DNA from: Phycicoccus endophyticus | Lineage (GTDB): Bacteria > Actinomycetota > Actinomycetes > Actinomycetales > Dermatophilaceae | DNA length: 64,000 nt | Direction: 5' to 3' | NCBI RefSeq assembly: GCF_011326735.1 | Contig: NZ_JAANCN010000001.1 | Span: 186,001 to 250,000 of the forward strand | In this document: in pieces, positions 58,741 to 61,450 of the stretch | Layout: each line of letters starts with the position of its first letter | Position numbering within the stretch: the first letter of the stretch is position 1 | Made by a program: the position numbers and the translations under genes | Notes under the pieces: generated by a model | What the model saw: only the letters and a program-made list of their open reading frames with translations | The model's database searches: none | Told to the model about the DNA's origin: nothing

Positions 58741-59401
58741 GCCGCTGCGCGACCGGCTGGAGCGGCGGCCGGTCCTGGCTTCCCGCCGCGCCTTCGAGGG
58801 CCGCGTCTGGGACGTGCGCAGCGACCGGGTCGACCTCGGGGAGGCCGGGGTGGTCACCCGCGACTACGTCGAGCACACCGGGGCGGTGGCCGTGCTCGCC
58901 CTCGACGAGCAGGACCGCGTCGTCGTGATCCGGCAGTACCGCCACCCGGTCGGCGCGTTCGCCTGGGAGATCCCCGCCGGGCTGCTCGACGTCGACGGGG
59001 AGCCGGCGCACGTCACCGCCGCCCGCGAGCTCTACGAGGAGGCCGACCTGCGCGCCGGGCGCTGGGCGACGCTCGTGGACCACTGGTCCTCGCCGGGCGG
59101 CTCGAGCGAGAGCCTGCGGATCTTCCTGGCGCGCGACCTGGAACAGGTGCCGGACGGCGAGCGGCACGAACGGACGGGGGAGGAGCTCGGGATGCCGCAA
59201 CGCCGGGTTCCCCTGGAGGAGCTCGTGGCCGGCGTCCTCGAGGGGCGGCTGCACAGCCCGACCCTCGTCATCGCGGTGCTTGCGGCCGAGACGATGCGCC
59301 GGGGCGGCTGGTCCGGACTGCGGCCCGCCGAGGCGCCGTGGCCCGAGCGCAGCCCCGGTCGGGCTCCGCGGGACGCGGGTCAGCCCCCGCCGCCGGCGTA
59401 G
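58733..59401 (+). CDS. NUDIX hydrolase, ADP-ribose pyrophosphatase type
   Basis: 222 aa. Nudix box [24 protein letters not shown] matches GX5EX7REUXEE (Ala where Gly is usual). Preceded by [20 protein letters not shown] and followed by YSSPG-like [17 protein letters not shown], as in ADP-ribose pyrophosphatases; Rv1700 is the syntenic counterpart. The C-terminal 30 residues are Pro/Arg-rich and unique. GTG 58733 overlaps pyrG. Its 3' end overlaps the convergent SipW-LamG gene by 22 nt. Confidence 0.93.
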
Positions 59402-60834
59402 AGCGTCACGACCTCCGCCTCGCCCAGGGCCCGCGCCCAGTAGGCGGCGTCGTCGAGCGCGCCGTCGAAGCGGCCGCTGCCAGGCCCCGGCCACCATCCC
59501 GCCGCCTCGTAGCCGACACGCAGGTCCCCGGCGTAGGCCGAGCTGCGGACCGTGGAGGACCCCGCCGGTGCGCCGTCGAGGTAGAGGCGCATGACACCGT
59601 CGGACACCGTGGCCGTCGCCAGGTGCCAGCGCCCGTCGGCGACCCGCGCCCGGCTGGTCACCGTGCGGGTGCTCCCCGTGTAGGTGCTGTCGGAGAAGAC
59701 GCCGAGGACCAGGCGCCCGTCGTCGACATAGAGATGGCGCTCTCGTGAGGTCCACCCGGTGTCGGAGAACCCGATGAGATCACCGCGCGAGGCGGTGGTG
59801 CGGAACCAGACCGAGAGGGAGAAGGAGCCCGCGACCGACAGTCGTGGCCCCTCGACCCCGCCGGTGAGCCCGTCCAGGTCGAGCGCGCGACCGCCGTCCG
59901 CCGTGCACGGCACCGACCTCGAGGAGCTGGCCCCCCACCAGCTGTACGAGCCGTCCAGGCCGTGACCGGAGGCGTCGGAGACCCGCCCACGGGCCGTGCG
60001 CTCCTCGAACGGGTAGTACAGGGCGGGACCGGTGGTGAGCACCGCGGTGCGGCACGAGACGACCGCGGCCGTCAGATGGGCGACGGGTGAGCTGGTGCTC
60101 ACCGCGAAGGACGCCCCGGTCGAGGTGGCGAACAGGCCCCCGAGGAGGACCGCGGGCGTGAGCAGCCGCGCCGTCCAGGCGCCAGGAGGTGCGTTGGACG
60201 CACCGACCGGCTCTCGCTCGCTCGCGGCGGGTGGAGGCTGCGATGGAGCACTGCCTCCGTCGCCCGGTCCGCCGCGGCCGGTCGTCGGTGCCGACCCGGC
60301 GGCGCGCCGCAGGTCCCGGTCGAGGCCGGTGGCCAGACCGAGCAGCGCCAGCCCGGCGAGCATCCCGCCCAGCCGCAGCCATTCGCCGCCGCGGACCCAC
60401 AGCACCGGCAGCCCCGCGTACGGCACGCGCAGGGCGGCGACCCCGTGCACGGAGCCCGAGGTCACCGCGCTGGAGTCGACCTCCCGGTTGGCGTCACCCT
60501 TGAGGACCAGCCGGCCCGCGTCGTCGCGCCGGACCACGCGGTGCAGCCGGAGCCGGCCGGGGTGGTCGGGGTCGTCGACGAGGAGGACCTGGGGCGGGGC
60601 GACGGTGGCCGGGTCCACCGGGCGGGTCACGATGATGTCGCCCACCCTGATGGCGGGCGCCATGGAGCCGCTGACGACCGTCGTCGGCTGCCACCCGAGC
60701 AGGGCCGGCAGCGTGCTCCAGGCGGCCAGGCCGACGACGAGAACGACCCCGGACCGGGCGAGCGCGGCGACGAGGAGCCGCACCCACGCCAGGAGCGGTG
60801 AGCTGCTCCTGCGCGGGGGTCGAGCGCTGGGCAC
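59380..60834 (-). CDS. SipW-type signal peptidase I fused to a C-terminal LamG domain
   Basis: 484 aa from GTG 60834 (first start not inside the upstream gene). Membrane helix about 27-48; peptidase box VVSGSMAPAIRVGDIIV with nucleophile Ser57; RLRLHRVV with His98 in place of the usual Lys, the ER/SipW type; LKGDANREVD (110-120). A second helix 152-169. A Pro/Ser/Gly linker (175-220), then LLTPAVLLGGLFATSTGASF (224-243), which looks like a SipW-type signal, and a LamG/concanavalin-like domain (about 265-480: ALYYPFEERTARGRVSDASG, FSLSVWFRTTASRGDLIGFS, GVMRLYLDGAPAGSS). The LamG part would be outside the cell. It lies 19 nt after the TasA-like gene, in one operon. No Shine-Dalgarno is seen. 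Confidence 0.88.
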   Translation of the reverse strand: MPSARPPRRSSSPLLAWVRLLVAALARSGVVLVVGLAAWSTLPALLGWQPTTVVSGSMAPAIRVGDIIVTRPVDPATVAPPQVLLVDDPDHPGRLRLHRVVRRDDAGRLVLKGDANREVDSSAVTSGSVHGVAALRVPYAGLPVLWVRGGEWLRLGGMLAGLALLGLATGLDRDLRRAAGSAPTTGRGGPGDGGSAPSQPPPAASEREPVGASNAPPGAWTARLLTPAVLLGGLFATSTGASFAVSTSSPVAHLTAAVVSCRTAVLTTGPALYYPFEERTARGRVSDASGHGLDGSYSWWGASSSRSVPCTADGGRALDLDGLTGGVEGPRLSVAGSFSLSVWFRTTASRGDLIGFSDTGWTSRERHLYVDDGRLVLGVFSDSTYTGSTRTVTSRARVADGRWHLATATVSDGVMRLYLDGAPAGSSTVRSSAYAGDLRVGYEAAGWWPGPGSGRFDGALDDAAYWARALGEAEVVTLYAGGGG

Positions 60835-60853: not shown

Positions 60854-61450
60854 TCAGCTGTTCTGGGCCTCCCAGGTGAACCCGATGCTCGCCGTCCCGC
60901 CCTGGACACTGTTGGGGGCGTCCGGGTCGAAGGCCAGGTCGAACTTGTACACGCGGCTCTGCTCCCCGCCCGCGGGCGACCAGGTGCCGACGCCCGTGCT
61001 GTACCCGGTGTGGCTGCTGCCGAAGTCGGCGACGCTGCCGCTGTAGACGGTGGCGCCCGAGGACGCCGGGGTGAAACCGTCGCAGCTGCCGAACGAGCCG
61101 CCCGTGCCCTGGGTGACATCGAGCGCGAGCTCGTCGGCGAGGTCCTTGGTCGTCTCGTAGCTCGTGCCGTAGAGCCTGACGGCCGAGGGGAGGGAGCCGG
61201 TGGAGGTCACGGCGATGCACTTGCTGCCCGCGTCGCCCGGCTTCATGTTCGACACGTCGAACGCGGCCGTCCCCGCGTCGTCGTCGGTGAGCTCGACGGT
61301 GCCGGCTGCCCAGTTCCCGGTGGGGTTGGACGTCGTCGCGGAGAAGGCCGAGTGTGAGGCCGTCGCGACGAGCCCGGCGCTGGCGAGGAGGGCCACGGGG
61401 GCAGCGCCCCAGGCGGCGATCCGGGCCAGGCGGGCGGAGGGGGTGAACAT
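60854..61450 (-). CDS. TasA-like secreted protein with SipW-dependent signal peptide
   Basis: 198 aa from ATG 61450 (AGGAG 8 nt upstream). N-terminus MFTPSARLARIAAWGAAPVA, then LLASAGLVATASHSAFSATT and SNPTGNWAAGTVELTDDDAG: the signal and early mature pattern of SipW-dependent proteins such as TasA/camelysin. Two Cys (78 and about 124) may form a disulphide. Mature part is a beta-rich domain (GTAAFDVSNMKPGDAGSKCI, YSGSVADFGSSHTGYSTGVG). In Bacillus such proteins form biofilm fibres; the role here is unknown. First gene of the two-gene operon with the peptidase. Confidence 0.9.
   Translation of the reverse strand: MFTPSARLARIAAWGAAPVALLASAGLVATASHSAFSATTSNPTGNWAAGTVELTDDDAGTAAFDVSNMKPGDAGSKCIAVTSTGSLPSAVRLYGTSYETTKDLADELALDVTQGTGGSFGSCDGFTPASSGATVYSGSVADFGSSHTGYSTGVGTWSPAGGEQSRVYKFDLAFDPDAPNSVQGGTASIGFTWEAQNS

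Follow-up and report, generated by a model that had tools for sequence, protein, structure and literature searches.

A SipW-like signal peptidase joined to a LamG domain behind a predicted internal SipW-type signal

Signal peptidases are usually viewed as enzymes that act on separate preproteins. The available text of one report describes how SipW cuts TasA, whose P2' residue is Phe, at a site that LepB handles only poorly (PMC10269814), and that of another describes the Clostridium perfringens sipW-bsaA operon, in which SipW is required for export of the matrix protein encoded next to it (PMC7395162). Here we analyze a window of 64,000 nucleotides (the whole stretch of DNA under study) in which one gene encodes a SipW-like peptidase and, farther along the same chain, a LamG domain behind a third hydrophobic segment. 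The pieces are already known; what appears to be new is that a signal peptidase is covalently linked with a substrate-like passenger, and none of the papers listed by a full-text literature search of partial coverage describes this, in line with the remark in an earlier note on this DNA that no such peptidase-substrate polyprotein had been described. A peptidase carrying its own preprotein would be a new coupling of the making, exporting, and freeing of a surface protein, and the fusion offers a compact setting in which to ask if a signal peptidase can work in cis.

Architecture of the fused gene and its neighbor

The earlier note had placed a SipW-type peptidase with Ser57 and His98 at 59380..60834, and its coordinates, frame, and residues prove right. 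The reading frame, from a GTG start at 60834 to a stop at 59380 on the minus strand, is intact. Its parts and the gene upstream are as follows.

59380..60834, minus strand: fused gene for an ER-type (SipW/SEC11-like) signal peptidase, a putative internal SipW-type signal, and LamG; 484 residues, stop codon counted in the coordinates
60700..60798, minus strand: transmembrane helix 1, residues 13-45 (AlphaFold2 models)
60382..60699, minus strand: catalytic domain, residues 46-151, predicted extracytoplasmic
60664-60666, 60541-60543, 60493-60495, and 60475-60477, minus strand: catalytic codons of Ser57, His98, Asp114, and Asp120, respectively
60298..60381, minus strand: transmembrane helix 2, residues 152-179 (152-180 in the second AlphaFold2 model)
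60184..60297, minus strand: linker, residues 180-217, predicted cytoplasmic; low pLDDT
60130..60183, minus strand: third hydrophobic helix, residues 218-235 (217-234 in the second model; AlphaFold2), the putative h-region of the internal signal
60094..60129, minus strand: c-region and predicted cleavage site, residues 236-247, with the cut after TGA241 and before S242-F243 (from the profile peak and the invariance of F243)
60106-60108, minus strand: codon of F243
59383..60063, minus strand: LamG/concanavalin-A-like jelly-roll, residues 258-484
60854..61450, minus strand: TasA/camelysin-like protein, 198 residues, SipW-type signal SHS-AF with the site between SHS and AF; directly upstream of the fused gene and in the same direction

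Several features identify the peptidase as ER type. When 17 related peptidase domains were combined into a profile, it matched the human ER-type enzyme SEC11C at E 4.8e-18. The catalytic Ser, His, and Asp boxes (SGSM, HR, GDxN...D) are invariant in the alignment of LamG fusions, with Ser57, His98, Asp114, and Asp120 each conserved in 16/16, and there is no invariant Lys, as is characteristic of S26B enzymes; the signal-peptidase fold is flanked by one membrane helix on each side, which is also an ER-type trait. The NCBIfam signal peptidase match (residues 36-143) falls under both curated equivalog cut-offs, at 42.3 versus 51.85 for TIGR02228 and 38.7 versus 190 for the Bacillus SipW model NF046067, so the enzyme is a relative rather than an equivalog.

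The LamG assignment of the earlier note is borne out by PF13385, which matches residues 332-475 at 70.9 bits versus a cut-off of 27.6, and by the jelly-roll fold of the AlphaFold model. The topology prediction that the note had proposed yields three helices in that model (13-45, 152-179, and 218-235; mean pLDDT, 77.8), and with the N-terminus inside, the catalytic domain and LamG would lie outside and the linker inside. A cut at the predicted site would leave halves of 24.6 and 25.3 kDa, which differ in calculated pI (11.5 versus 5.8). The ~25-kDa LamG fragment that the note had expected thus fits in size, but a band of that size would not be distinctive, as the other half is also ~25 kDa. In structural searches with the whole model, Foldseek placed binding domains of clostridial neurotoxins at the top, and VIA-align ranked an arabinanase domain first; the neurotoxin matches share only the common jelly-roll, and no functional conclusion is drawn. 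A weak match to the fimbrial protein TafC (NCBIfam, E 0.00078, 18.7 bits versus a cut-off of 410), for which no paper was found, was dropped. A search of the window's own genome gave one match to the fused protein, and promoter and terminator scans found nothing.

The upstream neighbor is a TasA/camelysin-like protein by PF12389 (26.3 bits versus a gathering cut-off of 22.5) and lies far below the TasA equivalog NF046066 (17.9 versus a curated cut-off of 450). It is the one clear TasA-like gene of its genome, where a second match is nonsignificant (E 0.08).

The internal segment and the predicted cleavage site

To score the internal segment, we built a 31-column profile from 65 signals, all taken from separate TasA-like proteins, fused proteins being excluded. 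Within the extension of the window protein, the profile score is highest at F243 (1.6), a value reached by 1/3000 shuffles of the extension's first 150 residues, by 16/3000 shuffles of residues 237-262 that leave the hydrophobic segment intact, and by 0/48 other called genes of the window (best, -9.8). For the training signals themselves, leave-out scoring gives a median of 58.9 with the 5% point at 9.8, and the site, beyond the shuffles yet under that point, is therefore more than chance and a poor copy. The parallel that the earlier note drew with the signal of the adjacent TasA-like protein, resting on two 17-residue strings with 7 identical positions, holds to that extent. The segment has the h-region, the small P1, the aromatic P2', and the likeness to TasA-like signals that mark SipW-type signals, weak as this copy is.

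The site stands out more clearly across the family than in this one protein. F243 is an invariant column in 16/16 aligned LamG fusions, and Phe stands at the site in 19/19 Pfam-confirmed LamG fusions once L067, L144, and L176 are added to the aligned ones; the 19 were chosen by peptidase plus LamG, not by motif, and include near-copies (L004/L005, L031/L032, and L144/L176). A relative in an Acidobacteria MAG (L039; bin contamination possible), with a broken frame and no LamG detectable by Pfam, was removed from the count; it carries AHA-AF. Among 40 motif-bearing fused proteins, the extension outscores the protein's own N-terminal part in 40/40, and the profile peak coincides with the residue picked by eye in 35/40. 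P1 is A, S, or G in 39/40 and P2' is F or W in 38/40, counts that are partly built in because the 40 were picked by eye. Given that SipW cuts TasA, with its Phe at P2', where LepB does so poorly, according to the available text of PMC10269814, the cut is predicted between A241 and S242.

Our preferred reading, to which we assign a probability of roughly two in three, is that LamG is a secreted substrate of the SipW type that has come to share a chain with its own peptidase and is probably freed from it as a ~25-kDa domain, with cleavage predicted from sequence. The architecture, the resemblance of the site, conservation, recurrence, and the gene order are demonstrated. Topology, cleavage, release, and role of the window protein we infer, as follows. 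Helices 1 and 2 would set the Ser/His/Asp catalytic domain outside the membrane; the chain would go back into the cytoplasm, and the third hydrophobic segment would serve as an internal SipW-type signal (TGA-SF, with a small P1 and an aromatic P2') behind which LamG would be exported. The peptidase, in cis or by way of a neighboring copy, would most likely cut after Ala241 and free LamG, which in the extracellular matrix may work alongside the co-encoded TasA-like protein, probably as an accessory that binds glycans or aids adhesion. Neither AlphaFold model shows the site docked in the active cleft, and with pLDDT below 50 at the site region in both, such docking is unsupported by them.

Uncleaved display is a possibility that we regard as unlikely. 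The third segment would be a signal anchor and LamG would stay tethered outside to the peptidase, where it could bind wall or matrix glycans and position the peptidase or the base of a TasA-like fiber. The segment could be an anchor, since over 33 proteins it is on average about as hydrophobic as the true helices 1 and 2 (p 0.28 and 0.11); hydrophobicity, tried as a discriminator between signal and anchor, showed no difference. Also in its favor, two proteins (L144:1504-2601, plus strand, and L176:2816-3922, minus strand) keep the peptidase, a GAAF motif, and LamG, but between catalytic domain and LamG both helix 2 and the third segment are missing; with an even number of helices lost, the passenger would remain outside, which points to the existence of a directly tethered form. 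An anchor, however, leaves unexplained the Phe in 16/16 alignment rows, the match to the signals of separate TasA-like proteins, and the enzyme and TasA-like passengers described below.

A further alternative, which we consider very improbable, is that LamG is freed by the housekeeping Lep-type signal peptidase and that fusion to a SipW-like enzyme is incidental. It draws on general background, as the small residues of TGA make it an acceptable site and such bacteria have enzymes of the Lep type. Against it, repeated fusion to precisely this peptidase type would go unexplained, and an aromatic P2', kept here, is reported to hinder LepB in the available text of PMC10269814.

Recurrence, other passengers, and separate-gene versions

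The search for SipW plus LamG in other actinobacteria that the earlier note had recommended reveals that the fusion is not a one-off. Peptidase and LamG share one frame in 8/186 genomes of the family, counting the one that holds the window, and, in counts made under a strict limit, in at least 6/396 genomes of the order and at least 2/396 of the phylum. Named bearers are Arthrobacter silvisoli, A. celericrescens, Geodermatophilus aquaeductus, and an Intrasporangiaceae MAG; a search of 11 other genomes of the genus found no fusion, one of them matching through a separate LamG gene.

The fetched loci, an uneven sample in which one place was counted twice (L012/L041), contain 112 peptidase domains. 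The tree of these domains, whose bootstrap had not settled, requires 10 changes of the LamG label (assigned to 20 rows, among them the broken L039), of which at least 5 are forced by well-supported branches; judged from this tree, the LamG fusion has been gained or lost repeatedly. The extension reaches at least 80 residues in 53/112 peptidases, and it scores -8.5 or more on the profile in 37/53, while the N-terminal parts score -12.8 or less in 53/53. By eye, 40/53 carry the motif; among the other 13 are tails rich in proline and a different extension containing additional helices. In another branch, SipW-like enzymes (L041:6230-7898 and L040) have a long extension with extra hydrophobic segments. 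A TasA-like gene lies directly upstream of 36/40 motif-bearing fused peptidases versus 32/72 other peptidases and, being found beside those others too, is not special to the fusion.

Passengers recognized by Pfam are RCC1 repeats (L071), WD40 with fn3 (L084), bacterial Ig (L160 and L138), and LamG (L067); a CBM5/12 passenger in L112 is weak and sub-threshold, and the two Curtobacterium fusions scanned (L034 and L036) gave no Pfam match for the passenger. By eye, the aromatic residue in the internal signals of four Curtobacterium proteins (L034, L035, L036, and L038) sits one position further along (AVA-GPW and AEA-APW). In the WD40/fn3 relative (L084:1435-2118), Thr replaces the catalytic Ser, and this peptidase is perhaps inactive.

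Two plasmid proteins, both outside the profile training set, extend the range of cargo. On a Pseudarthrobacter plasmid, the peptidase is followed by a SipW-type signal (profile 32.4) and a glycosyl hydrolase 26 domain by Pfam, and on an Arthrobacter alpinus plasmid, a fused peptidase has a bacterial Ig passenger (profile 25.0). Upstream of each lies a gene for a TasA-like protein (E 6.4e-35 and 1.7e-47, respectively). Both are annotated by passenger only ("glycosyl hydrolase" and "Ig-like"), which makes the class easy to miss. At the plasmid locus L209:4261-6512 (NZ_CP061722.1), a TasA-like gene precedes a peptidase with SipW-type signal and glycosyl hydrolase 26; the product, annotated as "glycosyl hydrolase" only, is given a start at the Met of the SGSMEP box, and the codons for helix 1 and the catalytic Ser immediately precede it in the same frame. 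The passenger of L158:2542-3792 (genome G633) is itself TasA-like (positions 1-147/148, E 1.4e-26, with a model built without the L158 locus), and no second TasA-like match was found within the fetched stretches of that genome. Two further peptidases (L186:2509-3702 and L204:1882-3699) have, by eye, an ordinary AxA internal signal and a C-terminal LPXTG-like sorting signal (LARTG and LAATG), with weak partial TasA-like matches (E 5e-4 and 4e-5); their LPXTG-like ends would suit a released, wall-anchored passenger.

Separate-gene versions also occur. In G160 (same genus) and G178 (same family), separate genes for TasA-like protein, peptidase, and LamG follow one another in this order, and G350 has a peptidase and then a separate LamG gene. 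At the LamG start, the profile gives 10.5 in G178; the separate LamG genes of G160 (-26.3) and G350 (-16.1) go unrecognized by it, which counts against the preferred reading, and have, by eye, aromatic residues near likely sites. The peptidases of all three lie elsewhere in the tree, making these parallels and not direct ancestors of the window fusion.

The proposal in the earlier note that the enzyme carries its own substrate is favored by an internal segment that behaves as a SipW-type signal, by Phe in 19/19, by the TasA-like passenger, and by the separate-gene versions; where it needs widening is in the cargo, LamG being only one of several passengers. Relatives with other cargo suggest a little-noticed family of would-be self-processing secretion proteins, and the fusions point to SipW-like export in Actinomycetota of cargo types beyond TasA-like matrix proteins. 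More tentatively, and with the balance tilted somewhat against it, there may be a widespread self-processing class in which an ER-type signal peptidase would covalently deliver its own passenger (adhesin-like domain, matrix subunit, or enzyme) to the outer face and free it in cis; enzyme and one substrate would then be made one to one, and secretion would not depend on meeting a separate peptidase. The idea of a chance or recent fusion of neighbors without a function of its own, or of an assembly or frame artefact, is compatible with the separate-gene versions and with 0/11 fusions in the rest of the genus, but is hardly credible given the intact frame, the fusions in several families and on plasmids, the conserved catalytic residues and motif, and the label changes on well-supported branches.

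Comparison with known systems

By sequence, the closest solved relatives of the window peptidase are SEC11A and SEC11C of the eukaryotic signal peptidase complex, with which it shares the catalytic domain. These belong to a multi-subunit complex and, to our knowledge, carry no substrate. Viral polyprotein proteases, in which the protease frees its own chain-mates, work analogously but are unrelated and do not cleave signal peptides. In the C. perfringens sipW-bsaA operon, SipW is likewise paired with a matrix protein gene beside it, with the difference that the available text of PMC7395162 describes no peptidase-borne passenger. Bacillus subtilis SipW with TasA and TapA resembles our locus both in an ER-type peptidase encoded with a TasA-like protein and in an aromatic residue after the cut, as far as the available text of PMC10269814 goes. 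In B. subtilis, however, SipW and its substrates are separate, whereas the chain of the window peptidase holds a further substrate-like domain.
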